NCBI GenBank assembly: GCA_016183425.1 | Contig: JACPEP010000007.1 | Span: 1-64,000, forward strand | Direction of reading: 5' to 3' | Source: Chloroflexota bacterium | GTDB lineage: Bacteria > Chloroflexota > Dehalococcoidia > JACPEP01 | DNA length: 64,000 bases | Shown: in pieces, positions 43,898 through 64,000 of the stretch | How positions within the stretch are numbered: the first letter of the stretch is position 1 | Layout of the letters: each line of letters opens with the position of its first letter | Notes under the pieces: model-generated | Seen by the model: the letters and a program-made list of their open reading frames with translations, nothing else | Told to the model about the DNA's origin: nothing | Databases searched by the model: none | Program-made: the position numbers and the translations under genes

Positions 43898-45577
43898 TCA
43901 GGCGACCTCGATGTCCCAGGGAGATAGAAGAAAGCCGTGGGGACGAAAGGTCTTGATTTTTTTCTTGTTGTAGCCTGTGTTGTAGGTCAGGGCCCACAAA
44001 GGTATAGCATAGGCCTCTTCGTTGATGCGCCGTAGAGCCTGGTTGAACAGCTTCCGCCTTGCCTCCGGGTCCACGGTGGTTTTGGTGGCCATGATGATTT
44101 TGTCCAGTTCCCCGTCTTCTATATATAGGTGGTTTCCCGTGGCATCCTTTTGGTTCCAGTTGATGAAGTAGGCTCCCAGCACTTCATCCAGGTCGAAGAA
44201 GCTGCCGCAAGACTGGCCTGTATGGTAGATCCCCTCGGGCCCCCTGTTCTCCATTCGCAGCCCCCGGGCCCAGACCGAGGCCGAATCTGTGTCCGGCTTA
44301 ATGGTGGCCTTGACCCCTATCTCGGCCCAATAGTTGGCCAGGGCCTGAGTGTATTCCTTGTACTTGGGATAGGCCACCGCTGGGGTAGTGAACACCACTT
44401 CAAATCCATTTGGATAGCCCGCCTCGGCCAGAAGCTGTTTGGCCTTCTTGGGGTCGTAAGGGTAACTCTCAATAGCGGCGTCGTAGCCAAAACAAAGGGG
44501 ATTTGAGACCACTTTCATCACCTGGTAGAGGTCACCGAAGAGCTCCTTGACGATGGTCTTGAGGTCGAGGGCATAGCCAAGAGCCTGCCGCACCCGCTTG
44601 TCCCGCAAGGGTCCCTCTTTGAAAAGGCTGATCGAGATGTAAAGAACGCTGCTGGCAGGTTGGACAGTTATACCCAGATTGGGGTCGGCAGTCACCTCTT
44701 TTGTCAGATCGGGGGCGATGTTCCAGATGATATCAGCGGCGCCCGTCTTTAGAGCAGCGATTCGGGCGCTTTCCGTCGGTATCACCTTGAAGATGATCTT
44801 TTTGGCAGGTGGGTTAGCGACTCGCCAATGGCTGACGCCAGCCCACTCCATCTCAATACTGTCGTCTTTCGCCCATTTGACAAACTTGTAGGGACCAGTG
44901 CCCATGGGCTTCTCGTTCATGACCTTGTCGCCATTCTCCAGGATGTATCGCCGAGGAACCGCGTTAACGACGCCTAATCGGTTCGGCAACAAGGGAGAGG
45001 GCTCTTTATAGATGATACGCACCGTGTCTTTAGCCAGAACCTCGACCCCAACGTCTTTCCAGAAGATGAACTGATTGGATTTCAGCTCCGGCTTTTGGAT
45101 CCTTTCGATACTGAACTTCACCGCCTCGGCGTCGAACTCCTCGCCGTTGTGGAATTTCACCCCTGTCCTCAGCTTGACCTCCCACACTTTGCCGTCGGAA
45201 CTGGACTTCCAACTGGTGGCCAGGCCAGGGGCGAGTTTCAAGTCCCGGTCTCTAGTAGTCAGGGGATCATAGATCAGGTCGTTGAGGTTTGCGCCCTCCA
45301 CATGGGTCGGCTGGACATTGCCATCAAGGGTCGGGACGTCTCGAGGGAATGCCAGGACAAGCTGGTCCAGAACCTTGACCGTCGGCGTCGGCGTTATCCG
45401 GGGTGCCGGCGTCGCCGTCGCCCCCGGGGCAGGTGCCCTGGCAGGAGTGGGGGTAGCTGCAGGGGCGGCAGCGCACCCCACCAGAGAAACCCCCACCAAA
45501 CCGGCCGCCGTCCCAATAACCCTTCGCCGCGAAATCTGCGCGCGAAGTACCTTGTGCCAGTATGCTTCTCTCACCAT
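43898..45577 (-). CDS. Family 5 substrate-binding lipoprotein (oligopeptide type)
   Basis: A 559-residue extracellular solute-binding protein of ABC transporter family 5 (OppA/DppA-like). The N-terminus AYWHKVLRAQISRRRV combines a twin-arginine signal with a lipobox (SLVGC, C35), then a Pro/Thr/Ala linker to about residue 70. Family segments: LVLAFPRDVPTLDGN, LRTGVKFHNGEEFDAEAVKFSIERI, MGTGPYKFVKW and VRQALGYALD. Ligands of the family include peptides, nickel, sugars and opines, so the substrate is open. No permease or ATPase gene is adjacent. ATG after AGGAGGAGAC. Confidence 0.92.
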   Translation of the reverse strand: MVREAYWHKVLRAQISRRRVIGTAAGLVGVSLVGCAAAPAATPTPARAPAPGATATPAPRITPTPTVKVLDQLVLAFPRDVPTLDGNVQPTHVEGANLNDLIYDPLTTRDRDLKLAPGLATSWKSSSDGKVWEVKLRTGVKFHNGEEFDAEAVKFSIERIQKPELKSNQFIFWKDVGVEVLAKDTVRIIYKEPSPLLPNRLGVVNAVPRRYILENGDKVMNEKPMGTGPYKFVKWAKDDSIEMEWAGVSHWRVANPPAKKIIFKVIPTESARIAALKTGAADIIWNIAPDLTKEVTADPNLGITVQPASSVLYISISLFKEGPLRDKRVRQALGYALDLKTIVKELFGDLYQVMKVVSNPLCFGYDAAIESYPYDPKKAKQLLAEAGYPNGFEVVFTTPAVAYPKYKEYTQALANYWAEIGVKATIKPDTDSASVWARGLRMENRGPEGIYHTGQSCGSFFDLDEVLGAYFINWNQKDATGNHLYIEDGELDKIIMATKTTVDPEARRKLFNQALRRINEEAYAIPLWALTYNTGYNKKKIKTFRPHGFLLSPWDIEVA

Positions 45578-46731: not shown

Positions 46732-47721
46732 TTAGATTCGCGAAGGGCGTACTGTACTGGGGGCGAACATTTCAGCTGGATCAAAGACCTTTTCGATCAA
46801 GTACATATCCTTCAGGTAGGACATGAAGGTCTCTATGGTAAAACGGTTCGCCTCCAGACCGTAGGGGAAAGGATCGGGGCCAAAAACCTCTTCTTGCTCT
46901 TCCACCGCCGGTATCAACCAGGGCAGGCTATAGCGCAGGGCGGCGGTGATGCCCATCTGCTGAAGGCAGCGTTGCTTGGCTTCCTCCAAAGCCTTGAAGA
47001 GGCTTTGCGCTACCCAGGGGTGTTCTTCATGGATGTCACGGCGGATGACCACCGTGTGCATAATGGGAAAGATGCGGCTTCTTCGGTAATATTCCACTTC
47101 CTCCTTCTTGTAATCGGGCCAAAGTCGTTTTATCTTAGGCGATCGCCTCACAAAGCAGGACGGTGCCCGAGCACTGCAGACGGCGTCCAAATCCCCTGTC
47201 TCCAGCATTGCCGAAAGGACTCGATCACGCACGTTTCGAAAACTGACCTGGGACGGCAACGTGATCTGGACCTTGTCTTCGCGGCCGGGCTCCTCCAACC
47301 CGGCCTGGAACCAATGGATGCTCTCGATGTCCACCCCATAGTAATCCCGGAGAGCCCCTCGTATCCAGATGCCCGCTGAATGGGCGTATCCGGGCAGGCC
47401 TATCCTTTTGCCTTCCAGGTCTTTCGGTGTGTCGATCCCCGATTCGATGTTTAAATAGACGCTAGCGTGGCGGAAGCTTCGGGAGGGGAAGACGGGTATA
47501 GCGATAAGATCTCGCTTTCCCTGTGCCCAACGGCTGACGTAGGTTCCGAAAGACATCTCCGAGACGTGGAACTCGCCATAGTGCACCATGCGCCAGAAGG
47601 CCTCCTCCGGCTCCAGGGTCAGATAGTTGAGTTTGATGCCCTCGGGTTGGACGTCCCCCAGGCGCAGGGCCATGGTGCGGTCGTAGGGGCCCATTGCCAT
47701 AGTGAGGTGGAGTTTTTCCAT
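46732..47721 (-). CDS. 4,5-dihydroxyphthalate decarboxylase-like (Pht5) protein
   Basis: A 329-residue soluble protein related to Pht5/4,5-dihydroxyphthalate decarboxylase, a family with a periplasmic-binding-protein-like fold but no signal peptide. Typical features are the opening LHLTMAMGPYDRTMAL, LEPEEAFWRMVHYGEFHVSEMS, GIDTPKDLEGKRIGLPGYAHSAGIWIRG and the HTVVIRRDIHEEHPW segment. ATG 47721 follows AAGGAGAAGAG and is chosen over an in-frame ATG 19 codons upstream. The family includes both decarboxylases and orphan binding-like proteins, so enzymatic activity is inferred only. It lies among binding proteins and possible aromatic or amide catabolic genes. Confidence 0.82.
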   Translation of the reverse strand: MEKLHLTMAMGPYDRTMALRLGDVQPEGIKLNYLTLEPEEAFWRMVHYGEFHVSEMSFGTYVSRWAQGKRDLIAIPVFPSRSFRHASVYLNIESGIDTPKDLEGKRIGLPGYAHSAGIWIRGALRDYYGVDIESIHWFQAGLEEPGREDKVQITLPSQVSFRNVRDRVLSAMLETGDLDAVCSARAPSCFVRRSPKIKRLWPDYKKEEVEYYRRSRIFPIMHTVVIRRDIHEEHPWVAQSLFKALEEAKQRCLQQMGITAALRYSLPWLIPAVEEQEEVFGPDPFPYGLEANRFTIETFMSYLKDMYLIEKVFDPAEMFAPSTVRPSRI

Positions 47722-47850
47722 ACTCTTCTCCTTTTCATAGAGGGTGGTGTCGATGCGACGCACTGCCATGATCCGCAATTCCTTATATCAGACCCTTTGA
47801 GGTTATGCAAGATGGCGCCCTGGATGAGAGAGTGTAGTGAGACCTGGTGT

Positions 47851-48618
47851 CTACAGCGATAAGGGGGAGGGCACCGTAGCTAGAAACATCGCAACGGCGC
47901 CGGCCAGGAACAGAACGCCAAAGGCCCGGCTCAGGGCCACCCCGCGAACGATAACCTTTTCGATGTAGAATATGAGGGCCAAGCCCAGCATCCATGCCAG
48001 GTTGGTGACTCCCACCCCGAACATGAGCAGCATTAAGGCCCAGCAGCAGCCCAAACAGAAAAGGCCGTGGCGCAGCCCCAGGGAGAGAGCGCCGGGCAGC
48101 CCGGGCCGCCAATAACGCACCAGGAAGCCAATGGGCGATTGACATTGAGAGAGGCACGCCTCCTTGAGGGGGCTAAACTGGTAAGCCCCCGCCAGGAGCA
48201 ACACTCCACCCCCGATGAATGGCGTTACCCTATCCAGGGGCTCTAAGGTCTCCACCAGCCAGTGCAGCACCAGGTCGCCGGCGAAGGCAGCCAGGCCAAA
48301 AGTACCCCAGACCGCCAGGTAGCCGCCGATGAACAGGGCCATCATGAGGAAGAAAGCCCTCGGCGGTTGGGTCCCTGCTGCATGGGCAAAACGATCCAAT
48401 ACGGGCCAGACGGTGGGGAGCATCATCGCCGCCGACATCACTACCCAGGCAGCCACGAAGAGAGGAACGGCCACCGCCCAGGGCTGGGCCCGAGCCCCCA
48501 GTAGGGCGTGGTGGCCCAGTTGCTGCCCCCAGGAGGAGCCCAACGAGGCGTAGGCCACGGCAACCCAGGCGAGCCCCGTCAAAAGAATCAGAAAAGCGAC
48601 AAGAAGTAGCCTGGTCAA
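47851..48618 (-). CDS. DUF2182 membrane protein
   Basis: A 255-residue integral membrane protein with about seven hydrophobic segments. The WVVMSAAMMLPTVWP motif (about residues 58-72) and the later CLSQCQSPIGFL and GLFCLGCCWALMLLMF segments, with paired cysteines and methionines, are characteristic of DUF2182, a predicted metal-binding membrane family. It follows the DUF1326 gene after about 80 bases. This DUF1326-DUF2182 pairing recurs widely, suggesting joint function, possibly in copper or other metal handling (inference). Confidence 0.88.
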   Translation of the reverse strand: MTRLLLVAFLILLTGLAWVAVAYASLGSSWGQQLGHHALLGARAQPWAVAVPLFVAAWVVMSAAMMLPTVWPVLDRFAHAAGTQPPRAFFLMMALFIGGYLAVWGTFGLAAFAGDLVLHWLVETLEPLDRVTPFIGGGVLLLAGAYQFSPLKEACLSQCQSPIGFLVRYWRPGLPGALSLGLRHGLFCLGCCWALMLLMFGVGVTNLAWMLGLALIFYIEKVIVRGVALSRAFGVLFLAGAVAMFLATVPSPLSL

Positions 48619-48697: not shown

Positions 48698-49288
48698 CTA
48701 TCCCTTCAATTCGAAGGGGCCGGTCCACATGCCGGAGCCGCTAAGGTCGAAGTTCATACCCTGGGCGTTGGCCTTGACCTTGGAGGATTTGCCGGCAGTG
48801 ACATTGGGCAGCGGGTAGTTGGTATTGGAGACCTGGATTTCAGCCTTGCCCTGGAGATCTTTCAGCGTCTCGCCAGCGCCCTCCACCAAATCTCCCGCTT
48901 TGACCGACAGCTTGCCGGCCGCAAAGGTGATAGAGATAGGAGCGGTGGCCACGCCCTTGAAATCGCCGATGAGGGCAGCAATCTGGGCCGCGTCTCCCTT
49001 CATCTCGCCGGTGAAGATGCCTTGCAGGGCATCCCTCTGTTGCTTACTAGCCTGAGAATCCAGGATAAGGGCAGCCGTCCAGTTGCCCTTGCTCCAAATC
49101 CCGGGAAACTCCGAGGCCACAATGGCCTTGGTTCCAGCTAGACTCACTGCGTCGGCGTTGCCCTCCTGTATTTCAAAGACCATCAACCCTCGGCACCGGC
49201 CGCCCGTGGGGGCCTGGCCAAAGGCACAGGGACACGGGGCATTACAGGAGCACAGCTCTGTGGCCCGCCCGGCAATTCGGTAAGCCAT
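48698..49288 (-). CDS. DUF1326 protein
   Basis: A 196-residue soluble protein whose N-terminus has the cysteine-rich DUF1326 signature LCSCNAPCPCAFGQAPTGGRC (residues about 12-32), followed by the all-beta body. No signal peptide or membrane segment is seen. It is paired with the DUF2182 gene. ATG follows a GGAGG site. The cysteines may bind metal, which would fit the membrane partner; biochemical function is unknown. Confidence 0.88.
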   Translation of the reverse strand: MAYRIAGRATELCSCNAPCPCAFGQAPTGGRCRGLMVFEIQEGNADAVSLAGTKAIVASEFPGIWSKGNWTAALILDSQASKQQRDALQGIFTGEMKGDAAQIAALIGDFKGVATAPISITFAAGKLSVKAGDLVEGAGETLKDLQGKAEIQVSNTNYPLPNVTAGKSSKVKANAQGMNFDLSGSGMWTGPFELKG

Positions 49289-49701: not shown

Positions 49702-50955
49702 CTAGATTGGCCTTTGGCCAAAAAGACCCAGTAATCCGACTCGGTTCATTCGCTCATGGATCCTGTCCGGCTCCATAACATCCAGTCCGACATCCAAGTA
49801 TCGCCGATCCACGGGCGATCCAGGGGGATAATCGCTAAGGCTATAGCCCTTCTTGATTTCCCATAAAAAAAACCCCATCATGGTTGTCTTGGGGAATGTT
49901 ACTAGCTCAGTTATTCCCAGGGCGGTTCTCGCTGCGTTGTGGCCGGCTAAATCTCCCGTATAGATACTTTCGACCAAAGATGAAAAGTCACCGCTTCTCA
50001 ACCCGGAACAGAACAGATTCGCCAGCCCCAACACGCGCATAGTTTCGTCATGGGGAGCCCCTGGACTAGTTTTTACACAATTGCCCGTCTGGGCCATAGG
50101 GCTTATTACATAGGCATCTTCGAAGCCGGGAAACTGGTGCAGGATGTCCATAGGAATGGTGGATACAAACAGTTTCACGAAGGGCATAAGGTAAATAAGC
50201 CGCTCACGCCCGAGATTGTTCTTGACCGGGCGGTCTTTGCGGGGCCAGTAGCTGGTGAAATCGTGGTTTTGCCAAGGTTCAGGAACCTGGTAGTAGAAGT
50301 AACCAGACTCCTCCTCTTGAATGCTCCTTAGAAGCCACGGTGCAATGCTGCTGGGGTGAATATAGGTACAAACATAGTAGCTAGCCGTTTTAGGAAGGTC
50401 CGGTACTCCCGCCGCTTCAGAAAGACCCACCCGGTCGCCGAAAACGGTACACTTCTGGCTGCAACCGACACAGCCCACTCCCCATTCTGCGCAAACTGGG
50501 ATTCCTCCCGTGGAGCCGGTAGCGTCAACAAAGGCGTCTCCTTCCAGCCTGGCACCGTTCTCCAGCACTACGCGGTGGATTTTGTTTCCCTCCTTCTCCA
50601 CGCCTACGACCCGACTTCTCAATATCACTTCAACCCCAGCTTTTTCTACTGTGGTCAGCATCGCTTTCTCGATTTTAGTGGTATCGAAGATGCAGCTTAC
50701 TTGGTGCCCAAACTCTCTTTGAGGAAAGATGCTTAAGCCCTCCAGGGCTTCTATGACCTCTTTACCGCCGCCATCGAGCAGTTTTGTTTCCATTCGGGCG
50801 ACATATTGAACCAGATGGCCGGTCAGTGGTCCGGTGCCCGATAGGGTGTCCATGCGCTCCACCAGAACGCTCTCCAGGCCAGCTTTGGCGACGGCGATAG
50901 CGGCGCTGCATCCGGCAACGCCGCCACCGACCACGATGACCCTTTTTGCTCCCAT
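49702..50955 (-). CDS. FAD-dependent oxidoreductase with four-Cys motif (paralogue 1)
   Basis: A 417-residue flavoprotein of the GidA/FAD_oxidored-like superfamily. The dinucleotide-binding motif VVGGGVAGCSAA lies at residues 8-19 and the second FAD motif DATG at 145-148. The C-terminal FAD contact is GLANLFCSGLRSGDFSSLVESIYTGDLAGHNAA. Immediately after DATG come C155, C162, C165 and C169 (C-x6-C-x2-C-x3-C), a likely [4Fe-4S] site. It is the most divergent of four paralogues and the last gene of an eight-gene minus-strand array. The gap to the next gene upstream is 30 bases. No signal peptide. Substrate unknown. Confidence 0.88.
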   Translation of the reverse strand: MGAKRVIVVGGGVAGCSAAIAVAKAGLESVLVERMDTLSGTGPLTGHLVQYVARMETKLLDGGGKEVIEALEGLSIFPQREFGHQVSCIFDTTKIEKAMLTTVEKAGVEVILRSRVVGVEKEGNKIHRVVLENGARLEGDAFVDATGSTGGIPVCAEWGVGCVGCSQKCTVFGDRVGLSEAAGVPDLPKTASYYVCTYIHPSSIAPWLLRSIQEEESGYFYYQVPEPWQNHDFTSYWPRKDRPVKNNLGRERLIYLMPFVKLFVSTIPMDILHQFPGFEDAYVISPMAQTGNCVKTSPGAPHDETMRVLGLANLFCSGLRSGDFSSLVESIYTGDLAGHNAARTALGITELVTFPKTTMMGFFLWEIKKGYSLSDYPPGSPVDRRYLDVGLDVMEPDRIHERMNRVGLLGLFGQRPI

Positions 50956-50985
50956 GATACCCCCTAACCTATGTCGTCCGAGGGT

Positions 50986-52239
50986 TTAACTTAACGGTTT
51001 GCTGTAGAGACCGATCATGCCGCCATCGCCCAAACGAGCTTTGATCTTCCACATGTCGGTGGTAACGAGACCTTTCTCGTAATATCTTTGGTCTATCTTT
51101 CGGTCTGAAGGCCAATCGGAGGGCGTCATGCCGTTTTTGGCTTCGTTTATAAAGAACCCGGTTAGAGTTGAAGATGGCAGTTCCATGGGGCTCATTTTCA
51201 AGGCTTGCCGCGTCGCGTTGTACCCGGCCAGGTCTCCTGTGAAGAGCACTTCTACGAATCCCTGGATGTCTCCTGTTTTCAACCCAGCAGCGAAAAGATT
51301 CTCAAGCCCGCTCACCCTTAGGGTGTTATCTCGGGGCGCCACAGCCCCCATTCTTAAGGGTTGGCCCCCGCCGCCAACAAGGGGATTCACTATCCATGCG
51401 TTTTCAAAGCCCTGGATCTGCCTGATGAACTTTGTGGGAACGTTCAGCCAGGTTTTGGCAAAGGGCATATGGATTATTTGTATTGGCTTTGCCCCCAGCT
51501 TTCTGGTAACAGGGCGGCTGGGGTATCTCCACTCTTCTGTAAAGTCATACTGCTGGAGATGGTCAGGAACGTCGATATAGGTGTAGCCCGACGGGGACGT
51601 TTCTATCCGTTCGCGAAGCTCTGGTGAAAGGCTTTCAGTGGCAATGAGAACACAGGACATATAGCTGGGTCGTTCTTTTTTCTCGTCGGGAGCCTCCGCC
51701 GCTTCCGTGATGCTCACTCGGTCACCAAATAGGGGACACATAAGCATACAGAGGACGCAGCCCTGGCCGAGGCGCTCACATTCCTCAACGCCGCTCATTT
51801 GTCCCGTGGCATCTACAAAGGCATCGCCATAGACCTGGGACCCATCCTGGAGCACTACCGAGACCACTTTCCTTTCTTTTACTGTTACCGACACCACCCG
51901 TTTCTGTAGCAGAATCTGAACTCCCGATTCCGTGAGCAGCTTGCGACATCCTTCAGGCACTTTGGTTACATCAAAGCAAACGCTTCCGGAGGGAACCCCC
52001 AGTTCAGGCCACCGATGCAGGGCCAGGGATTCCAGCATCTGGATTATCTCCCCGGCGCCCCCATCCATCAACAGAGCTTCTTGACGAGCGATCCATCCGG
52101 ATAGATGCCCCGTCCAGGGGGCCAGGCCAGACAGACGGTTCATTTTCTCAATCAGTGTGACCTCTACCCCGGCCTTGGCCGCCGTCAACGCCGCCGCGCA
52201 GCCACCGAAGCCGCCGCCAACAACAATCACCCTGGCCAT
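50986..52239 (-). CDS. FAD-dependent oxidoreductase with four-Cys motif (paralogue 2)
   Basis: A 417-residue flavoprotein closely similar to the paralogue at 55751-57001. FAD motifs: VVGGGFGGCAAA (residues 6-17), DATG (143-146) and GLENLFAAGLKTGDIQGFVEVLFTGDLAGYNA. The conserved cysteines are C154, C161, C164 and C168 in ECERLGQGCVLCMLMCPLFG. The N-terminal sequence PWTGHLSGWIARQEALL is shared by paralogues 2-4. It lies between paralogue 1 and the VOC gene, all on one strand with short gaps, so co-transcription is expected. Cytoplasmic, catalytic role undetermined. Confidence 0.88.
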   Translation of the reverse strand: MARVIVVGGGFGGCAAALTAAKAGVEVTLIEKMNRLSGLAPWTGHLSGWIARQEALLMDGGAGEIIQMLESLALHRWPELGVPSGSVCFDVTKVPEGCRKLLTESGVQILLQKRVVSVTVKERKVVSVVLQDGSQVYGDAFVDATGQMSGVEECERLGQGCVLCMLMCPLFGDRVSITEAAEAPDEKKERPSYMSCVLIATESLSPELRERIETSPSGYTYIDVPDHLQQYDFTEEWRYPSRPVTRKLGAKPIQIIHMPFAKTWLNVPTKFIRQIQGFENAWIVNPLVGGGGQPLRMGAVAPRDNTLRVSGLENLFAAGLKTGDIQGFVEVLFTGDLAGYNATRQALKMSPMELPSSTLTGFFINEAKNGMTPSDWPSDRKIDQRYYEKGLVTTDMWKIKARLGDGGMIGLYSKPLS

Positions 52240-52270
52240 AGAGGTCTTTCAGACAAGAAGTCGGAAACCT

Positions 52271-52735
52271 TTACTTTGATTCAGGGGCCGCCTCGCTTAG
52301 GGGCACTATGTTTCCATCGGGGTCGTAGGCCAGGACATTGGCGCCGCCCCCAGGCCGCTTAGCAGGAGGGGCTACGAATCTAACGCCTTTCTTTGACAGC
52401 TCTTCATAAGCCGCGTCCACACTCTCGACCCTGAATATCATCCTCATGAACCCTATGTCCGTCAGGGTCCAGTTTTCTGGGCGCGGTTTCGAAGGCGGCG
52501 AAATAAACTGGACTAGCTGAAGTTTCACGGGTGTGGTCTTGTCAACCAGGTTAGCACCCAGAAAGTGTAGATTGGACATGTTGAAGAGCTTTTCATGAAA
52601 TCGAACGGATTCGAGACGATCCTTAGTGTCGAACTGGTCTACCACCTTCAGACCCAGCAGATCCCGATAAAAATGGAGCGACCTTTCTAGGTCTTGCACG
52701 CACACCACCGTCCAAGAATATCCCTCGACTTCCAT
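52271..52735 (-). CDS. VOC-family (glyoxalase-like) protein
   Basis: A 154-residue vicinal-oxygen-chelate fold protein with one betaalphabetabetabeta pair: YSWTVVCVQDLERSLHFYRDLLGLKVV at the N-terminus and RMIFRVESVDAAYEELSKKGVRFVAPP...LAYDPDGNIVPLSE at the C-terminus. The usual N-terminal metal histidine is replaced (VVCV), so metal binding may be incomplete. It sits between the binding-protein gene and flavoprotein paralogue 2. VOC proteins include dioxygenases, epimerases and lyases; the reaction is not predictable here. Confidence 0.85.
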   Translation of the reverse strand: MEVEGYSWTVVCVQDLERSLHFYRDLLGLKVVDQFDTKDRLESVRFHEKLFNMSNLHFLGANLVDKTTPVKLQLVQFISPPSKPRPENWTLTDIGFMRMIFRVESVDAAYEELSKKGVRFVAPPAKRPGGGANVLAYDPDGNIVPLSEAAPESK

Positions 52736-52771
52736 TGCTGAAGGACCTCCTTTCGTCGCTTCTCTGTCTAT

Positions 52772-54397
52772 CTACGCCGTTTTCCACACGCTCTCAAAGA
52801 ACCAGCGGGGCACTTCGATCCCGGGAACGTAGTTGCTCACTTGCTTGCGATAGGCCAACATAATGCTCTCCCAGACTACGGGAATGTTGTAGTAGACCTC
52901 TTCGATGATGCTCCGTTCCAACTGGTTATAGATTCGGCCCCGCTCCTCTTTGTCGTAGGTTTGTTCCCCTTTCTCCATGAGTTGTCTTAGTTCAGGGAAG
53001 TCAGCGGAAACAGCGGCAGCATAGGGTGCCTTGATGGGATGAAGATTGTAGGCCACATGCCAGGCGGGGTCCGGGCCGGTATTGGTACGGCTGAACCTCA
53101 TCTTGTAGCGTCCTTGTTTGGATAGGTCCAAGAACTTGGCCCATTCGATATTCTGTATTTTTAGTTTCATCCCCACTTTCGCCACCTGAGCCTGGACCGC
53201 CTCCGCCATTTCCACGAGTTGGGGGTAGTTTGGGCTAGTAAGGGCTTCGATCTCGAGGCCATCGGGATAGCCGCCCTCAGCCAACTTCGCCTTAGCTTTT
53301 GCCGGATCGTAGGGATAGCCCTTGAGACTCGGGTCGTAGAACCAGTAGACGGGGCTGAACTGGCCATGGGCCATTGTATTCAGCCCCTGGAAGACGCTTT
53401 TTTGGATGGCTTCTTTATCGATAGCGTAGGCTAAAGCCTGCCGAACCGCCTTGTTATTAAAGGGTGGCTCCTTGCTATTAATAAAGATTGCCGAGATCCC
53501 CGCAGCCGGCTTGATGACCACCTCTATGTCTTGACTCCTCCTCAAATCTTCGATGAACTTCCCTTCAACTTCACTTAGGAAATCGATCTCTCCCGTCTTC
53601 AGCATGGTGGTTTGCACCACCGTGTCGGGTATGATCTTAGCCACCACCGAGTCCAGATAAGGTAACCCCTTTTTCCAGTACCCATCGAACCTCTTCATGG
53701 TGACGTGATCGTCTTGCAACCACTCCTGGTGCTGGAAGGGGCCCGTGCCCACGCCGTATTTGGTGAGGTCATTGTTGTATTTTTTTGCCGCTTCCGGAGA
53801 CACCATGGCGCACATGCTGTCATTGGCTACACCAGCCAAAAAACCTCCGTAGGGCCCTGTCAGGTTGTAACGGACGGTGTAGTCGTCTATCACCTCCATG
53901 CTTTTCACCGCTTGCTGGAGCCTGCTCTTGCGGTCAGCGAAGGCGGGGGTATCTATGATGCGTTGATAGTTGAACCTGACGACAGAGGCGTTGAAATCCA
54001 CGCCATCGTGGAACTGGATACTCTTGCGGAGCCTGAAGATGAATTTATCCGGCTCTGGTATTTCCCAGGACTCCGCCAACTGATCATTCACCGGATTGGC
54101 CTTGTTGTCCAGCCCAACCAGGGTGTTGTAGAGCTGGTTTCGTGCCATATTGTCGAAATTACCCCCCAGGCTCTTATGGGGTTCCTCGCCGATAGTGCCC
54201 TTGGAAGCGACCCTCAAGATGCCGCCATAAACCGGCCCTGCCTTGGCCGGAGTGGGTGGAGCCTTGGGTGCGGGAGCGCAGCCCGCCAAATAAAGGCCTG
54301 CCAAGCCCAAAGCGCCCGAAACTGCCGACCTTAGAGCCTGGCGACGGGATACCTGTTTAGAAAGAAGCCTACTCCAATAGTGACTTTGGCCTTCCAT
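52772..54397 (-). CDS. Family 5 substrate-binding lipoprotein
   Basis: A 541-residue solute-binding lipoprotein. The signal SHYWSRLLSKQVSRRQALR joins a twin-arginine motif and a lipobox (YLAGC, C40). Family 5 segments include YGGILRVASKGTIGEEPHKSLGG, LRKSIQFHDGVDFNASVVRFNYQRI, GTGPFQHQEW and VRQALAYAIDKEAIQ. It is more like the protein at 57083-58717 (shared PAKAGPVYGG/MGGRLRIAS opening and NFDNMARNQLYN/NLDGVVRNNMYD) than the one at 43898, supporting module duplication. No permease or ATPase is near. ATG behind GGAGGGG. Confidence 0.92.
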   Translation of the reverse strand: MEGQSHYWSRLLSKQVSRRQALRSAVSGALGLAGLYLAGCAPAPKAPPTPAKAGPVYGGILRVASKGTIGEEPHKSLGGNFDNMARNQLYNTLVGLDNKANPVNDQLAESWEIPEPDKFIFRLRKSIQFHDGVDFNASVVRFNYQRIIDTPAFADRKSRLQQAVKSMEVIDDYTVRYNLTGPYGGFLAGVANDSMCAMVSPEAAKKYNNDLTKYGVGTGPFQHQEWLQDDHVTMKRFDGYWKKGLPYLDSVVAKIIPDTVVQTTMLKTGEIDFLSEVEGKFIEDLRRSQDIEVVIKPAAGISAIFINSKEPPFNNKAVRQALAYAIDKEAIQKSVFQGLNTMAHGQFSPVYWFYDPSLKGYPYDPAKAKAKLAEGGYPDGLEIEALTSPNYPQLVEMAEAVQAQVAKVGMKLKIQNIEWAKFLDLSKQGRYKMRFSRTNTGPDPAWHVAYNLHPIKAPYAAAVSADFPELRQLMEKGEQTYDKEERGRIYNQLERSIIEEVYYNIPVVWESIMLAYRKQVSNYVPGIEVPRWFFESVWKTA

Positions 54398-54475
54398 TTT
54401 TCCCCTCCCTCTTGCTTAAAAAGCTGCTTTCTTGATGTTATCGGGTCTTTTATTCTCGCCCATTGCCGAGCATCC

Positions 54476-55723
54476 TCACGCCAAACGTTTGGCGAAGATT
54501 CCCTCCATTCCAGCGGCTCTGACCCGCTCTTTTATTTTCTGGTAATCGGTGGTATCGAAGCCGGCATTTTTGTAGGTAGGATCGCTCAGGGGAGTGCCGC
54601 TCCACTCGTTAGGCGTCTGGCCCGTCTTCACTACCGACAGAAAATAACCCATCAGGGTGGAGATGGGCATCGGCAGGGGTGTCATACCCAAGGCCGTTCG
54701 AGCGGCGTTCCAACCGGCCACGTCGCCGGCAAACATGGCTTCGATGAAGCCACTATAGCGACCGGCCCGAAGGCCAGCGGCAAAAAGGTTGGCCATTCCG
54801 GTTACCCGCAGAGTATCATCGTGGGAAGCGTAGAAGCCGGTGCCCACCGTTTGTCCCTCGGCATCGAGAGGCTGCATCATCCAGGCATTTTCAAACCCGG
54901 GGATCCGTTGCAGCCACTTCAAGGGCAGGTTGAGCTTCGTCTTGGCGAAGGGAACGTGGACCACATTGACCAAAGTTCCTTTGATCTTTGCGGTTACCGG
55001 CCGATCGGGGCGGCGCCACTCTTTGGTAAAGTCCATACTCAACAGGTCTTCTGGGATGGGAAAGTAGGAATAGCCACTCTCTTCGTCTTCGATTTTTTGG
55101 CGCAAATCCGGTGAGAGGCTCTCCATGGCGATGAGGCTCATGGGGAAATAGTTCCAGCGATCCTCCTGGTCCGGGACATCCACCAGCGCCGAGAGGCTGA
55201 TACGGTCTCCGAAAAGGGGGCAGTTTAGGAGACATAACGCGCAACCTTGGCCCAGACGGTCGCACCATTCCACGCCGCCGGTACGACCGGTGGCGTCCAC
55301 GAAGGCATCGCCCTCGATTCGAGTCCCGTCTTCGGTGATAACGGCCCTCACCTTGTTTTCTGACCTGTCGATCTGGGTAACTCTGCTTTTAAGCCTGAAC
55401 TTTATGCCCGACTTTTCAATCAGCTTTGCTATGGCGTTGGCGATCCTGGTTACATCGAAGGTTATGTTGCCGTCTTTCACCCCGAACTCGGTAGTTCTAT
55501 GAATGGATAGGCTTTCCATCACCGCGACTATATCAGCGGTGCCGCTTTCCATGAGCCTAGTTTCAGTCCGGGATACCCAGGTCAGTATCTGGCCGGTCCA
55601 CGGGGCGAGGCCGGACAAGAAATCCATTCTTTCTACGATCTCCACCTGGACTCCGGCTTTCCGAGCCGTCAAGGCGGCGGTGCATCCCCCCAAGCCCCCT
55701 CCGATAACAACCACTTTTGCCAT
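54476..55723 (-). CDS. FAD-dependent oxidoreductase with four-Cys motif (paralogue 3)
   Basis: A 415-residue flavoprotein of the same set: VIGGGLGGCTAA (residues 6-17), DATG (143-146), then C154, C161, C164 and C168 in WCDRLGQGCALCLLNCPLFG, and the C-terminal GMANLFAAGLRAGRYSGFIEAMFAGDVAGWNAA. ATG 55723 follows GAGG at 7 bases; an adjacent GTG (55726) is an alternative. It begins 27 bases after the stop of paralogue 4, and the two likely form a pair. The product may be an iron-sulfur flavoprotein; electron partner unknown. Confidence 0.88.
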   Translation of the reverse strand: MAKVVVIGGGLGGCTAALTARKAGVQVEIVERMDFLSGLAPWTGQILTWVSRTETRLMESGTADIVAVMESLSIHRTTEFGVKDGNITFDVTRIANAIAKLIEKSGIKFRLKSRVTQIDRSENKVRAVITEDGTRIEGDAFVDATGRTGGVEWCDRLGQGCALCLLNCPLFGDRISLSALVDVPDQEDRWNYFPMSLIAMESLSPDLRQKIEDEESGYSYFPIPEDLLSMDFTKEWRRPDRPVTAKIKGTLVNVVHVPFAKTKLNLPLKWLQRIPGFENAWMMQPLDAEGQTVGTGFYASHDDTLRVTGMANLFAAGLRAGRYSGFIEAMFAGDVAGWNAARTALGMTPLPMPISTLMGYFLSVVKTGQTPNEWSGTPLSDPTYKNAGFDTTDYQKIKERVRAAGMEGIFAKRLA

Positions 55724-55750
55724 CACTTTGCCTCTTTTCTATTCAAGAAT

Positions 55751-57001
55751 CTAGCTCAACGGCTTCTGATAGATTCCCATCATACCCGCTTCCTTGATCC
55801 GTTCCTTAATAGTGTTTAGGTCAGTGGAGACCAAACCTTGTTCATGGTATTTAGGGTCTATCTTGCGGTCTCGGGGCCAGTCCGAGGGGGTCATGCCATC
55901 TCTTATTTCGGCGATAAAGAAGCCGATGAGTGTCTTGGGCGAAAGCACAATGGGTTCTTTGCCCAGGGCGACCCTGGTGGCATTGTATCCTGCCAAATCA
56001 GCGGTGAACATAACCTCCACAAAGCCGGCGATGTGGCCCGTCTTGAGGCCAGCCACAAAAAGATTTTCAAATCCCTTCACCCGTAGGCTATTCTCTCGAG
56101 GGGCAACCGCTCCCATGCGCAGGGGCTGGCCCGTGCCGCCGGCCAATGGGTTCACCAGCCAGGCATTCTCAAAACCAGGCAGCCTCCTCAAATAGTTCAA
56201 AGGGATGTTAGCATAGGTTTTGGCGAAGGGTATGTGAATTATCTGGATTACTTTTCCCAGGTGGCGGGTAACCGGACGCTCGGGGTGAGGCCACTGACCG
56301 GTGAAGTCTATGTCCTGGAACTCCTGGGGAACCGGGAGATAAAAATACCCAGATTCTTCCGCCTCTATCTTTTTACGTAGGTCCGGGGAGAAACTCTCCA
56401 TGGCGATGAGAGAGCAAGACATATAGCTAGGGCTACCCCGCTTTTCGTCAGCCACGCCCGCCTTTGCCGTAATACTGATTCGGCTCCCGAAGATAGGACA
56501 CTGCACCATGCAAAGAACGCACCCCTGGCCGTACTGCTCACACTCCTCTATGGTGCTGATCTGGCCCGTGGCGTCAACGAAGGCATCCCCTTCTATCCGA
56601 GAGCCATCTTCCAAAACTATTGTTTCGACGCGCCTGTCTCTCGTCTCAACGTCGATGGCTCGGCTCCGCAGCCTTACTTTGACGCCAGCCTCTTCTAGCA
56701 GGTGGCGCATTCCCTCGGCGAGCCTCGTTACATCGAAAACGATGCTCCCACCGGGGACGCCCATCTCGTAGTAGCGATGGATGGCCAAGGAGTCCAAAAG
56801 ATTTAAGATCTGGGCGCCCCCGCCCCCGGTTAGTAGCACCTCTTGTCGGGCGATCCAGGTGAGAAGCTGCCCCGTCCACGGACCCAAACCGGAAAGCTGA
56901 TCCATCTTTTCGATAAGAACAACTTCCATTCCGGCCTGGCGCGCCGTAAGCGCTGCCGCACAGCCCGCAAAACCTCCCCCCACCACCACGACTTGCCGCA
57001 T
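55751..57001 (-). CDS. FAD-dependent oxidoreductase with four-Cys motif (paralogue 4)
   Basis: A 416-residue flavoprotein: VVGGGFAGCAAA (residues 6-17), DATG (143-146), C154, C161, C164 and C168 in ECEQYGQGCVLCMVQCPIFG, and GFENLFVAGLKTGHIAGFVEVMFTADLAGYNA. It is the closest match to paralogue 2 (both end ...YxKPLS), while paralogue 3 is the closest neighbour in the genome, so duplication occurred as a pair. ATG 57001 gives the family N-terminus; the frame extends upstream to a GTG at 57028 without a better ribosome site. Confidence 0.88.
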   Translation of the reverse strand: MRQVVVVGGGFAGCAAALTARQAGMEVVLIEKMDQLSGLGPWTGQLLTWIARQEVLLTGGGGAQILNLLDSLAIHRYYEMGVPGGSIVFDVTRLAEGMRHLLEEAGVKVRLRSRAIDVETRDRRVETIVLEDGSRIEGDAFVDATGQISTIEECEQYGQGCVLCMVQCPIFGSRISITAKAGVADEKRGSPSYMSCSLIAMESFSPDLRKKIEAEESGYFYLPVPQEFQDIDFTGQWPHPERPVTRHLGKVIQIIHIPFAKTYANIPLNYLRRLPGFENAWLVNPLAGGTGQPLRMGAVAPRENSLRVKGFENLFVAGLKTGHIAGFVEVMFTADLAGYNATRVALGKEPIVLSPKTLIGFFIAEIRDGMTPSDWPRDRKIDPKYHEQGLVSTDLNTIKERIKEAGMMGIYQKPLS

Positions 57002-57082
57002 ATTATAACTCGCCGAAAGACTCACCAAGCTACGAAAGGTGCCTCTTCAAAGCATTCCTGAGCCGATTTTGTCTTACCGGGC

Positions 57083-58717
57083 TTATTTTACCTTCCACAC
57101 CCCCTCGAAGTACCAGCGATTGTCCGTCATGGCGGGAACATAACCTTGAACCTTGGTGCTGTGGGCCACATAGTTAGCTCCATGCATAATGGGAAGCATC
57201 CAGTAGACGTCCTCCACCATCTTCCGATTCAGCTCGTTGTAGATGCGGCCCCGCTCCGTGGCGTCGTAGGTGGCATCGGCTTTTTTCATCAGGGCGTCGA
57301 ACTCGGGATTGGGAACCATTTGGTTGTTATAAGGGGCGCTGCTCAACGTATCGTAAATGGAGTAATAGTAGGGATCGACGCCGGTACTGGTGCGACCAAT
57401 GAGGGCCTGGAAATCGCCTTTCTTCCAACTGTCCAAAAAGACGGCATATTCCACTGTCTTAAGCTTAATCTTTATGCCCACTTTTGCTAGCTGACCCTGG
57501 ACTGCCTCACCCAGAGGGATGAGGTCGGGCACGCCACCGCTGACCAAAGCCTCCACCTCGAAACCGTCGGGAGAGCCCCCCTCCTTGAGCTTGGCCCTGG
57601 CCTTGTCCAGGTCGAAGCGGTACATCTGCTCAATGGCGGGGTCGTAGAACCAATAGCTGGGGCTATAGTGGCCGTAAGCCACTGGAGCCAGCCCCAAATA
57701 CACTCCCTGCTGTATGGCCTCTCGGTCTATGGCGTAGGCAGCCGCCTGGCGCAGCGCCTTATTGTTAAAAGGCGCTTTCTTCGAGTTTATCGAAAGGCCT
57801 CTGAGAACCGGGACGGGCCCCCCGGGCACCTTGATGTTAGGATCGTTCTTTAGCTCCAAGACGTCTTTCGACTGCATTTGGGCCATGAAATCGATCTCCC
57901 CGGTACGGAGCATGGTTATGGACACAGTTGGATCTGGGATCACCTTTACATACAGCTCATCCAGGTAGGGCACCCCGCTCTTCCAGTACCCGGCAAATTT
58001 TCGTAACGTGATGTGATCATCCTGGAACCATTCGCTGTGCTGGAAAGATCCCGTCCCCACCCCGTTCCGTTTCAAATCGTTGTTGAACTTTTTTACCGCC
58101 TCTGGGGATACCGGTGAGACGAAGTGGTCGCCGGCCACGATGGCCAAGAACCCCGCTGAAGGCGCCGGCAGTTTATAGGCCACGGTATATTCGTCAACCG
58201 GCTCCACAGACTTGACGGACTGGCCTACAAAAGGAGCGCTGGTGGCCTTTGTGGCGGGATCCATTATCCGCTCATAGTTGAACTTCATGAGCTGGGCATT
58301 CAAAGGGACCCCATCGTGGAGTTTCACCCCTTTACGAAGTTTAAAAACCACCCGGTCTGGCTCCGGGATCTCCCACGACTCTGCCAGGGATGGAACGTGC
58401 TTGCCTTTAGGATCGATCCAGATGAGGTTGTCATACATATTGTTCCGGACTACGCCATCCAGGTTGCCACCCAACTGGAGAAGAGGGTCCTCCGACAAAG
58501 TGGCTGTAGAAGCAATCCGCAACCTGCCTCCCATAACAGGCTGAAGCGACGGGGTGGGGGAACCAGGGACGGCGGCCGGTTTTGTAGGGGCCGGTTTGGG
58601 CGCTGCCGGAGCGCAACCCAGGAGCGCCACCGTGCCTACACCAGCCAGTGTGCCTCGAATGAGACGCCGGCGAGACAGACGGCGCCGCAACAGGGTGTCC
58701 CAATAGTTCTCTTTCAT
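57083..58717 (-). CDS. Family 5 substrate-binding lipoprotein
   Basis: A 544-residue solute-binding lipoprotein. The signal NYWDTLLRRRLSRRRLIRG with lipobox ALLGC (C35) is followed by a Pro/Lys/Ala linker. Family segments: GGRLRIASTATLSEDPLLQLGG, LRKGVKLHDGVPLNAQLMKFNYERI, GTGSFQHSEW and LRQAAAYAIDREAIQ. ATG 58717 is preceded by AAAGGA and fixes the start; the upstream open frame overlaps the VOC gene and is not coding. It lies 18 bases downstream of the double-VOC gene and 82 bases upstream of flavoprotein paralogue 4. Confidence 0.92.
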   Translation of the reverse strand: MKENYWDTLLRRRLSRRRLIRGTLAGVGTVALLGCAPAAPKPAPTKPAAVPGSPTPSLQPVMGGRLRIASTATLSEDPLLQLGGNLDGVVRNNMYDNLIWIDPKGKHVPSLAESWEIPEPDRVVFKLRKGVKLHDGVPLNAQLMKFNYERIMDPATKATSAPFVGQSVKSVEPVDEYTVAYKLPAPSAGFLAIVAGDHFVSPVSPEAVKKFNNDLKRNGVGTGSFQHSEWFQDDHITLRKFAGYWKSGVPYLDELYVKVIPDPTVSITMLRTGEIDFMAQMQSKDVLELKNDPNIKVPGGPVPVLRGLSINSKKAPFNNKALRQAAAYAIDREAIQQGVYLGLAPVAYGHYSPSYWFYDPAIEQMYRFDLDKARAKLKEGGSPDGFEVEALVSGGVPDLIPLGEAVQGQLAKVGIKIKLKTVEYAVFLDSWKKGDFQALIGRTSTGVDPYYYSIYDTLSSAPYNNQMVPNPEFDALMKKADATYDATERGRIYNELNRKMVEDVYWMLPIMHGANYVAHSTKVQGYVPAMTDNRWYFEGVWKVK

Positions 58718-58734
58718 TTGTCCTTTTCCTCTTT

Positions 58735-59637
58735 CTAGAGACGTTGCACTAACTCTACGAAGTTTCCCTCCGGGTCTCGGCAGATGCAAGCCTTCCAGGA
58801 TGGACCCGGGACCGGTGGCGAGACGAAGCTGACCCCTTGGCTCACCAATTCCCGATAAACTGCTTCCAGGTCCGCCACAACGAGACCGGGCCACTTTACG
58901 CCTATATCCCAGAGCCTGAGGGGCTCTGCCAGGGGCCTTCCCACTGGATACTCCCATTTGGCGATGTCGATACGTCCGTTGCGAGCCTCCAGCTGAGTGT
59001 CGGCGAAAAGGAACCAGAAGTCTACCTTCGGTCTGGGCAAGGAAAACCAGGTCATCAGGGCCTTCTGCCGCTCTTCTGGGGGTTCTGGTGGGCCGGGGGG
59101 GCCCGGGGAGGCGGTGGCCGGGTTGAGCCCCAGGGTGTCCCGGTAAAAGGCGAATACTCTTTCTTGGTCTATGGTGTTGATGTTCAGGTGGTTGTTGTTG
59201 GTGAGCTCCACGAAGGTGCCGTCGGGGTCTCGACAGAAGGCGACTACGTGGGTGGGGCTGCGACGAAGGGGTGGCGACAGAAAGCGGTGGTAGAGGGAGG
59301 AAGGCTGGTTGGCGTAGAGGGTATCCAGGCCTCGAATGGGGATGCCTATCCAGGTGAAGGCCTGGTCGCAGGCATCCATACTGAAGGGTCTCCCCGGGGG
59401 GAAATGCCATTGAATGAGCTCGAGAAGCCGTTTCGTTGGCTCCCGGGGAGGCTCGGTTTCGAGAAGAACGCTCCTAAGCTGCACTCCCTCCGCTCCGTAG
59501 AGTCGATCGTATAGCTCTCCGGCTCGTTCTTTATCAGATCTTACTTTCAAACCCAGATAGTCTCGGTAGAACGCCAGGGATTTATCCATATCGCTCACCG
59601 AAAGGGCGGTGTGGTTAAACTCCTGTATCCTCACCAT
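58735..59637 (-). CDS. Double VOC-domain protein
   Basis: A 300-residue protein with two vicinal-oxygen-chelate units. The first (about residues 1-150) begins MVRIQEFNHTALSVSDMDKSLAFYRDYLGL and ends FCRDPDGTFVELTN. The second continues HLNINTIDQERVFAFYRDTLGL and ends ICRDPEGNFVELVQRL. Histidine and the two terminal glutamates are retained in metal-ligand positions, unlike the single-domain VOC protein in the array. The size and two-module build resemble extradiol dioxygenases or 4-hydroxyphenylpyruvate dioxygenase-like enzymes, but this is only a fold-level analogy. ATG 59637 follows AGGAGG. It heads the eight-gene array. Confidence 0.85.
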   Translation of the reverse strand: MVRIQEFNHTALSVSDMDKSLAFYRDYLGLKVRSDKERAGELYDRLYGAEGVQLRSVLLETEPPREPTKRLLELIQWHFPPGRPFSMDACDQAFTWIGIPIRGLDTLYANQPSSLYHRFLSPPLRRSPTHVVAFCRDPDGTFVELTNNNHLNINTIDQERVFAFYRDTLGLNPATASPGPPGPPEPPEERQKALMTWFSLPRPKVDFWFLFADTQLEARNGRIDIAKWEYPVGRPLAEPLRLWDIGVKWPGLVVADLEAVYRELVSQGVSFVSPPVPGPSWKACICRDPEGNFVELVQRL

Positions 59638-59770
59638 TAGAGCCTCCTTTCCTGCCTCCGTTGCTGCCTCACTGCGGCCGTTTGTAAAGGGTAATAATAG
59701 CATAGCCCCCCCCTCTGTCAAGGCCCTGTACCCCTCCGGCACAGTAGTGACGCCGGCCTCCCTCGGGAGG

Positions 59771-60604
59771 TCACACCGGGCCGGGTATGGGGTGGCGTGA
59801 GCAGAAGTCTGCCAGGGCCTCGGCCATACCACGTGCCGCAGCTTGGTTCTCAAGATGCAGGAAGTGCGTAGCGCCGGGGAGGACAAACCCTTCGGCGTGC
59901 GGCAGCCAGTCCAGCAGGAGTCGGTACGTCTCCTCGAACCGGGGAGAGAGGGCGACGCTCTCGCTGCCGAGCACGGCGAGGACTGGTTGGGTGATACGTC
60001 GTGCCTCCGCCTCGCCGAAGCTCCAGTCCAGCCATCCTGGTAGTTCCAGCTCGAACGAGGTCGCCGCATCTGTCACCGCCTGCACGAAGGCCCCCGGCAG
60101 GATCCGGTCGAGGACGGCGCGGTACCCCGGCCAACGTGCCTGCAGGAAATCGTCTACGATAACCGCTGCGGGTCCCTCCCGGTACCGTTGTTGGCCGCGC
60201 ACCAGCGAGTCTCGGTAGGACTGAGCGCTGGCTCCGACTATCAGCGCCGGCTCTAGCAAGGCCAGCGAGTGGACGACCTCCGGGTCGCCCAGCGCGAGCT
60301 GGAGGGCGATGCAGCCGCCTAAGGAGTGCCCGATGATATGCGCCTGCTCCACGTCTAGATGACGCAGCAGCGCACGGCAATCAGTAGCCTGCCGAGCGAT
60401 GCTAACGGTACCGGGCTTGTGGCTGCTGCCCATGTAGCCCCGGCGGCGGTAGGTGATAAGCCGGTAACCATGGGCCAAGCTGGGCTCGGCCAACAGGGGC
60501 CGGAAAGAGTCCGCGATGAGCGCACCGTGGATAAAAACCACCGGCTCACCTGAGCCGGAGACTTCGTACTCTAGCGTGATGCCGTTGACAACTGCCTTTT
60601 CCAC
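59771..60604 (-). CDS. Alpha/beta-hydrolase
   Basis: A 277-residue soluble alpha/beta-hydrolase fold protein. The nucleophile elbow is GHSLGG (serine near residue 93), the oxyanion motif HG in VVFIHGALIADSF, and the catalytic histidine in GATHFLHLEN near the C-terminus. Esterase, lactonase or C-C hydrolase activity is possible. Start is GTG with AGGAGG upstream; it overlaps the upstream small membrane protein gene by 34 bases. It lies 133 bases before the double-VOC gene on the same strand and could belong to the same pathway. Confidence 0.88.
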   Translation of the reverse strand: MEKAVVNGITLEYEVSGSGEPVVFIHGALIADSFRPLLAEPSLAHGYRLITYRRRGYMGSSHKPGTVSIARQATDCRALLRHLDVEQAHIIGHSLGGCIALQLALGDPEVVHSLALLEPALIVGASAQSYRDSLVRGQQRYREGPAAVIVDDFLQARWPGYRAVLDRILPGAFVQAVTDAATSFELELPGWLDWSFGEAEARRITQPVLAVLGSESVALSPRFEETYRLLLDWLPHAEGFVLPGATHFLHLENQAAARGMAEALADFCSRHPIPGPV

Positions 60605-63448: not shown

Positions 63449-64000
63449 ATGGCACAGGAAAACAACTACTGGACGGAGGTTTTTCACAAAAGAATATCCC
63501 GTCGGCGAGCGCTAGGGGTGGCTGCCCGGGCCAGTCTGGGCGTAGCGGGAGCGGCCCTTTTAGGGTGCGCCGCCACCCCTGCCCCCACGCCCACTAAGGC
63601 CCTGGCAGTCTCACCGGCCGCCGCTACCCCCACTCTCAGACCAGCTGTTACTTCTACGCCGGTGGCAAAAACCTTAGATAAGCTTGTGATAGCCCATACC
63701 AGGGACATACCCAGTCTTGACCCGCAAGTACAGTCGGGAAATATCTCACAAGGCGGATACTGGGATATGCTCACCGACACCCTGGTGACTTTGGCTCGGG
63801 AGGAAGAGAGCCTCAAACTGGTGCCCGGTTTAGCCACCAGTTGGAAGGTCATGGAGGACGACCCCAGGACCTGGGAGTTCAAGCTGAGGCAGGGGGTAAA
63901 GTTCCACAACGGGGAAGAGTTTGACGCCGACACGGTGGTCTATAACATCGATCGCAACAAAGACCCGGTGCTCAAGCTTAACATGATGCCATATGTTAAG
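63449..64000 (+). CDS. Family 5 substrate-binding lipoprotein, N-terminal part (cut by window end)
   Basis: The first 184 codons of an open frame running off the window. The signal NNYWTEVFHKRISRRRALG with lipobox ALLGC (C40) is followed by a Pro/Thr/Ala linker (to about residue 72) and family 5 segments KLVIAHTRDIPSLDPQ and KLRQGVKFHNGEEFDADTVVYNI. The linker and RDIPSLDP/RDVPTLDG match make it closest to the protein at 43898-45577, not to the two in the flavoprotein array. It is transcribed rightward, so permease and ATPase genes may follow beyond 64000. AGGAG lies 14 bases upstream and GGAG closer. Confidence 0.9.
   Translation, partial: MAQENNYWTEVFHKRISRRRALGVAARASLGVAGAALLGCAATPAPTPTKALAVSPAAATPTLRPAVTSTPVAKTLDKLVIAHTRDIPSLDPQVQSGNISQGGYWDMLTDTLVTLAREEESLKLVPGLATSWKVMEDDPRTWEFKLRQGVKFHNGEEFDADTVVYNIDRNKDPVLKLNMMPYVK

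Follow-up and report, generated by a model that had tools for sequence, protein, structure and literature searches.

Two kinds of gene-family expansion described in bacteria come close to the locus reported here. In the SAR202 group of the class Dehalococcoidia, catabolic families have expanded into many paralogues, among them the enolase superfamily (COG4948), flavin-dependent monooxygenases (COG2141) and dehydrogenases, and the study of that group stresses major facilitator superfamily (MFS) transporters (PMC10444878). In Rhodoplanes, the substrate-binding proteins (SBPs) of the tripartite tricarboxylate transporter (TTT) type have expanded to 434 members, with transport membrane components and regulators encoded nearby (PMC5994714). 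Here we describe an array of eight genes in a 64,000-nucleotide stretch of DNA from a Chloroflexota bacterium (contig JACPEP010000007.1, positions 1 to 64,000; the window). The window lies on the contig labelled C31 in a genome of 2.7 Mb in 52 contigs, about 95% complete. The array encodes four flavoproteins (F1 to F4), two SBP_bac_5 lipoproteins (SBP 1 and SBP 2) and two VOC proteins, and it is one of about a dozen islands built from the same expanded families. At the centre of the island is the flavoprotein family, which is uncharacterised and widespread. With slightly better than even confidence, we read the array as a catabolic capture-and-convert island that feeds shared permeases within a lineage-specific expansion.

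By analogy with the two described systems, the genome appears to combine SAR202-like sets of catabolic paralogues with a Rhodoplanes-like SBP expansion, in different families. It is like SAR202, apparently of the same class, in the lineage-specific amplification of several catabolic families, for which parallel pathways acting on diverse organics have been inferred. The amplified families are different, however, being the GidA-fold four-cysteine flavoprotein, SBP_bac_5, fused molybdenum hydroxylase, arginine-deiminase-like, cupin and M20 families, and here binding proteins too have been amplified, in physical linkage with the enzymes. With this linkage, the idea of catabolic paralogue expansion in Dehalococcoidia-like bacteria comes to include binding proteins. 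In the TTT/Bug expansions of Rhodoplanes and Bordetella (PMC5994714), a single family likewise supplies tens to hundreds of SBPs to one genome, some dispersed and some in small arrays. In contrast to those TctC proteins, the SBPs described here belong to the SBP_bac_5 family of ABC transporters, occur in another phylum and have recurrent enzyme partners. No direct literature report was found of an SBP_bac_5 expansion in Chloroflexota or on this flavoprotein family.

A GidA-fold flavoprotein family with four invariant cysteines

All four flavoproteins match the Pfam GIDA and FAD_oxidored profiles, with PF01134 scores of 75-82 bits for F1-F3 and 64 bits for F4 against a cut-off of 22.1. The nearest solved folds to an AlphaFold2 model of F1 (mean predicted local distance difference test score, pLDDT, 91) are GidA/MnmG structures (Foldseek E value 1e-19; template-modelling (TM) score 0.68 by query length), and a profile search matched the GidA/MnmG structure 3cp8 at 2e-17. 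The similarity to GidA/MnmG and TrmFO, the nearest matches in both sequence and fold, spans the FAD domain and the C-terminal FAD-binding region. The family differs from them in its low identity (15-18%), its four-cysteine motif, its length (417 residues vs ~620 in GidA) and its location in islands of catabolic type. Beyond these, structure searches gave generic FAD proteins only and no close solved relative. A role in tRNA modification, as MnmG or TrmFO proper, was rejected because the cut-offs of the curated equivalog models were missed (TrmFO models at most 44 bits vs 262 and 429; mnmG_gidA at most 35 bits vs 525) and the genomic context is catabolic.

All four cysteines of a C-x6-C-x2-C-x3-C motif are present in each of the 25 paralogues found in the genome. 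Among distant homologues, 87 of 95 keep the exact spacing and 7 more have one inserted residue, giving 94 of 95 overall. The flavoprotein is probably a [4Fe-4S]-binding FAD oxidoreductase, with the cluster predicted to be held by these cysteines. The term iron-sulfur flavoprotein, used in an earlier reading made from the sequence only, is well supported as a prediction by four invariant cysteines on an FAD fold.

Homologues with 28-37% identity are found mainly in Firmicutes, with a few in Thermotogota, Synergistota and other Chloroflexota. At 18 Firmicutes loci the adjoining gene, at a median distance of 12 bases, belongs to one family, and the member of it that was tested is an NAD(P)H electron-transfer protein of the PyrK/NfnI kind. 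Because the distant homologue adjoins an NAD(P)H-oxidising PyrK-like subunit at these loci, as in the PyrK/NfnI-paired iron-sulfur flavoproteins of anaerobes, an iron-sulfur flavin oxidoreductase is probable. At other outside loci the homologue lies beside genes for TRAP, Ssu-type or Opp transporters and for UbiD decarboxylases; all of these but Opp were identified by inspecting the sequences. A Bacillota contig from groundwater carries a molybdenum hydroxylase, two flavoproteins, an Ssu-type transporter, a cyclase and a UbiD-like gene. In the same class, 7 of 393 genomes, this one included, hold a match at E ≤ 1e-40, and 1 of 399 genomes sampled from the rest of the phylum holds one at E ≤ 1e-60. 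The relatives searched included none from the same genus, family or order.

The VOC proteins bear on what chemistry could accompany the flavoproteins. In an alignment, the H, E, H and E of metal-binding paralogues are replaced by W, Q, M and P in the single VOC protein, which is probably not a metalloenzyme. Both domains of the double VOC protein keep H, E/D and E and lack the second histidine ligand. Neither protein has the H/E/H/E set of VOC metalloenzymes or the H/H/E set of extradiol enzymes, and extradiol or glyoxalase chemistry was rejected for want of support in these ligand columns. Ring or C-C chemistry, which the sequence-only reading had tentatively assigned to the VOC proteins, is left unsupported because metal-ligand residues are missing, all four in the single protein and one from each domain of the double protein. 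The closest paralogue of the single VOC protein (C26:57637, 52% identity) is also degenerate and also lies beside a flavoprotein locus. Those of the double VOC protein (47%) are in a VOC array on contig C46. At C46:359-6306, eight VOC genes stand in tandem, about half of them two-domain and some with intact metal-ligand sets.

The flavoproteins could instead be oxygen-using FAD monooxygenases which, with the VOC proteins, form an aerobic route of aromatic-ring degradation. Aromatic hydroxylases, e.g. MHPCO, do appear among the Foldseek matches below GidA/TrmFO, the genome encodes a COX1 heme-copper oxidase, and a homologue of 4,5-dihydroxyphthalate decarboxylase is encoded ~2 kb downstream of the array. 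However, GidA/MnmG is the closest fold and the hydroxylase matches are generic to the FAD domain at 14-15% identity, and the VOC proteins lack the glyoxalase and extradiol ligand sets. An oxygenase role is also made less likely because most homologues, with their four cysteines kept, are in largely anaerobic lineages of Firmicutes and Thermotogota. To our knowledge, FAD monooxygenases have no such four-cysteine set. We regard this route as improbable.

Binding proteins and the permeases of the genome

SBP 1 and SBP 2 match PF00496 over its full length (288.5 and 292.2 bits vs a cut-off of 32.4). Each N-terminus has a YW motif, a twin-arginine sequence (SRRRLI in SBP 1, SRRQAL in SBP 2) and a lipobox (LLGC and LAGC, respectively). 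Twin-arginine-like motifs are present in 51 of 59 SBPs of the genome and lipoboxes in 50 of 59, and the lipoproteins are probably exported by the twin-arginine translocation (Tat) pathway. The closest solved relatives of SBP 2 are YliB/GsiB (7e-60) and DppA (8e-51). At the peptide-site motif of DppA, DPDN[WF]/DPQN[WF], the array proteins read GPDPAW and GVDPYY.

No permease or ATPase gene is present within the array, although such SBPs usually have both encoded next to them; membership of the family does not depend on this. Across the genome, 58 SBP_bac_5 loci stand against 13 BPD_transp_1 genes, of which four DppBC pairs account for eight; genome-wide counts here come from searches and fetched stretches, with split SBP matches joined. 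In the SBP tree, the rows used fall into two large clades with 27 members apiece and an outlying pair, C15_74571 (DPDNW) and C39_50256 (DPQNF), which adjoins DppBC and retains the DppA-like motif that both expanded clades have lost. One member of each expanded clade is adjacent to DppBC, C52_20336 in the clade of the array SBPs and C15_44597 (C15:42.6-44.5 kb) in the other. That each expanded clade holds one permease-adjacent member suggests that many SBPs share one hub permease. Such sharing, at ~27 binding proteins per permease, would be unusual and is simple to test. Two further SBPs of the window, at 43898-45577 and 63449-64000 (to 65155 on C31), belong to the other clade. Elsewhere, at C1:36915-43000, an orphan SBP stands beside two NifH-like genes and a nitrogenase-component-1-type protein (PF00148).

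The excess of 58 SBPs over four Dpp-type permease pairs would also be expected if the SBPs were sensors or scavenging antennae acting through other partners, with the flavoproteins forming a separate pathway that is merely co-located. Rhodoplanes offers a parallel, in that its TTT SBPs are found near histidine kinases, regulators and membrane components of several transport systems (PMC5994714). However, at the loci examined the recurrent neighbours of the SBPs are catabolic enzymes and include no family of histidine kinases or chemoreceptors, and one permease-linked member has been kept in each expanded clade. A sensing role appears unlikely.

In the capture-and-convert reading that we favour, the two lipoproteins would capture small organic solutes on the outside of the cell and, having no permease of their own, would probably hand them to a shared Opp/Dpp-type permease encoded elsewhere. 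In the cytoplasm, the four flavoproteins, each predicted to hold FAD and an iron-sulfur cluster, would oxidise or reduce the substrate in a two-electron step, with FAD and this cluster as the path of the electrons. The VOC proteins would bind or assist rather than cleave rings, and the paralogues probably differ in substrate. Of this picture, the analysis shows directly the order and paralogy of the genes, the conserved cysteines, the fold, the surplus of SBPs and their co-location with flavoproteins; cluster binding, the direction of the redox step, Tat export, the sharing of permeases and the catabolic role are inferences. Surface capture followed by redox processing had been proposed from the sequence only, and it gains from the SBP lipoproteins, the FAD fold with its cysteines and the catabolic genes that co-occur with them. 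More tentatively, the flavoproteins may represent an unrecognised class of GidA-fold iron-sulfur enzymes for the catabolism of a broad class of substrates, amplified in this lineage together with permease-less SBPs. The system would then be combinatorial, with one or two hub permeases served by dozens of interchangeable SBPs and a matched set of redox enzymes contributed by each island.

Ancestry of the array and its recurrence across the genome

A maximum-likelihood tree of the 25 flavoprotein paralogues and 45 outside homologues places all 25 in one clade (100/100), as would be expected of amplification within a single lineage. Within this clade F1 and F3 are sisters (100/100; 63% identity), a pair that the sequence-only reading had recognised as paralogues 2 and 4 in coordinate order. 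F2 is sister to a tandem-array clade of contig C26 (100/99). F4 groups with copies on contigs C17 and C35 (100/99) and not with F2, the two having 41% identity and belonging to different well-supported clades. The two SBPs, also said to match each other, have 49% identity and are near-sisters in a clade with one contig C11 copy (98/93). This third paralogue joins SBP 1 (96/87) and is nested between them. DNA comparison gave only four matching patches of 43-120 bases with 73-84% identity.

A clean block duplication is ruled out by the flavoprotein and SBP trees and by the patchy DNA match. The array is made of two similar sets, in which, judging from the trees, only the SBP and one flavoprotein appear traceable to a shared local event, and the remaining parts appear to have been recruited from the genome-wide pool of paralogues. 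F2, F4 and the VOC proteins group with copies on other contigs, which for these parts points to recruitment and not block copying. The island would have grown by local duplication of the SBP and one flavoprotein and by such recruitment. The duplicated block of the sequence-only reading is thereby retained for the SBPs and one flavoprotein and given up for F2, F4 and both VOC genes, which sit on other branches. The trees, a check proposed with that reading, also indicate that the halves are not unrelated acquisitions.

The 25 flavoprotein paralogues are distributed over 12 loci, nine of which lie within 2.5 kb of an SBP, compared with 12% for a random position (binomial p ~1e-6). Recurrence of the gene set elsewhere had been proposed as a further check, and flavoprotein and SBP do recur together at these nine loci of the genome. 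At other loci of the genome the flavoprotein co-occurs with SBP, molybdenum hydroxylase, aldehyde:ferredoxin oxidoreductase (AOR), UbiD, cyclase and M20 genes. Family counts for the islands stand at 13 fused molybdenum hydroxylases, 16 arginine-deiminase-like, ten cupin-family and seven M20-like proteins, with RidA, cyclase and isochorismatase at six copies apiece, plus three UbiD, one AOR, two GRDB and two MTTB proteins. These copy numbers are single-linkage clusters within the fetched regions, with one or a few members per family checked against Pfam; among the expanded families, the flavoproteins alone were placed on a tree with outside homologues. The base composition of the expanded families matches that of the remaining fetched genes, which argues against a mixed assembly. 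One suggestion is a toolkit, spread over the whole genome, that lets the cell capture a large number of unusual small organic molecules and process them chemically. With 25 paralogues in one small genome, the function of the flavoprotein is directly testable. If the proposal is true, it would give a way to learn which dissolved organic compounds are consumed by bacteria of this kind.

The mosaic ancestry of its parts, together with a GC content of 55.0% vs 59.2% in the rest of the window, could also mean that the array is a neutral accumulation of genes that are mobile or prone to duplication and have no common function. Against this, all frames are open, the conserved residues are intact in all 25 flavoproteins, the genes are spaced as in an operon and have one good promoter-like site, co-location recurs at nine of the 12 loci, and the GC content of the flavoproteins at third codon positions (GC3) matches that of the other genes. 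Such an accumulation is very unlikely.

Several points weigh against the capture-and-convert reading. FAD and the cluster are absent from the structure model, both being read from sequence. The search of this genome found no PyrK-like partner, although an empty result of this kind is a weak negative. Outside this genome, the flavoprotein is found beside SBP_bac_5 at no fewer than 2 of 95 loci, a lower bound given that many of the loci are short. Because the pairing is nearly confined to this genome, it could be a quirk of the lineage rather than a functional unit. Two flavoprotein loci, on contigs C35 and C24, are more than 9 kb from any SBP. The sharing of permeases is deduced from clade membership only, and a few permeases, not some fifty, may be missing from an assembly of this completeness.

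Other arrangements of the same families were also observed. At C26:7612-15346, one SBP, a Dabb-domain gene and a fused molybdenum hydroxylase are followed by six flavoproteins in tandem. The 16 arginine-deiminase-like paralogues (PF02274, ~355 residues) are located among orphan SBPs and M20-like genes at C33:110392-120845, C39:52053-60311 and on C40, stretches that form another type of expanded enzyme-SBP island. In another genome of the same class (G026, 5.0 Mb), there are 368 first-look SBP_bac_5 candidates (36 scored, all significant) vs 59 permease genes, and in six stretches of ~20 kb the SBPs alternate with CoA-transferase-like, MmgE/PrpD-like and mutase-like genes. This SBP set may be the ABC-type counterpart of the TTT expansion of Rhodoplanes.

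Gene layout and neighbouring genes

The eight genes (49702-59637, minus strand; Table 1) are tightly packed and are read in the order double VOC, SBP 1, F1, F2, SBP 2, single VOC, F3, F4. The number of genes, strand, coordinates and order agree with the sequence-only reading; its short gaps are confirmed as well, with a recomputed range of 17-81 bases in place of 18-82. F1 starts at a TTG at 57028 or, more likely, at an ATG at 57001. The promoter-like site is positioned 57 bases before the first start codon, between the double VOC gene and an alpha/beta-hydrolase gene, and is the best of 14 promoter-like matches in the 17 kb scanned (46.5-63.5 kb). The tight same-strand spacing and this site just upstream of the first gene make it likely that the eight genes form one transcription unit starting near it.

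Table 1. Features of the array, in order of transcription
Feature	Coordinates	Strand	Basis
Promoter-like site TTGACA-16-TATTAT	59694-59721	-	11/12 consensus positions; consensus match only
Two-domain (double) VOC protein, 300 aa	58735-59637	-	Pfam Glyoxalase 6e-24
SBP_bac_5 lipoprotein 1 (SBP 1)	57083-58717	-	Pfam PF00496 1e-85
Flavoprotein F1	55751-57001/57028	-	FAD/GidA-like by Pfam; model pLDDT 91
F1 four-cysteine motif CEQYGQGCVLCMVQC, predicted iron-sulfur ligand set	56498-56542	-	Invariant in 25/25 paralogues
Flavoprotein F2	54476-55726	-	GIDA/FAD_oxidored by Pfam; four-cysteine motif at 55220-55264
SBP_bac_5 lipoprotein 2 (SBP 2)	52772-54397	-	Pfam PF00496 8e-87
Single VOC-fold protein	52271-52735	-	Pfam Glyoxalase 1e-19
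Flavoprotein F3	50986-52239	-	63% identity to F1; four-cysteine motif at 51736-51780
Flavoprotein F4	49702-50955	-	Four-cysteine motif at 50449-50493; 62% identity to contig C35 copy

The decarboxylase homologue mentioned above (46732-47778, minus strand) is full-length (9jp7, 3e-73) and single-copy in the genome. It points towards aromatic acids as substrates, as a lead and not as evidence. It is on the same strand as the array, but DUF1326 and PpoB2 genes intervene, and the array itself has no other recognisable phthalate-pathway gene. The intervening genes (47851-48618 and 48698-49288, minus strand) are a PpoB2-type copper chaperone (PF09948) adjoining a DUF1326 gene (PF07040). The alpha/beta hydrolase (59771-60604, minus strand), encoded just upstream of the promoter-like site, is weakly PcaD-like.

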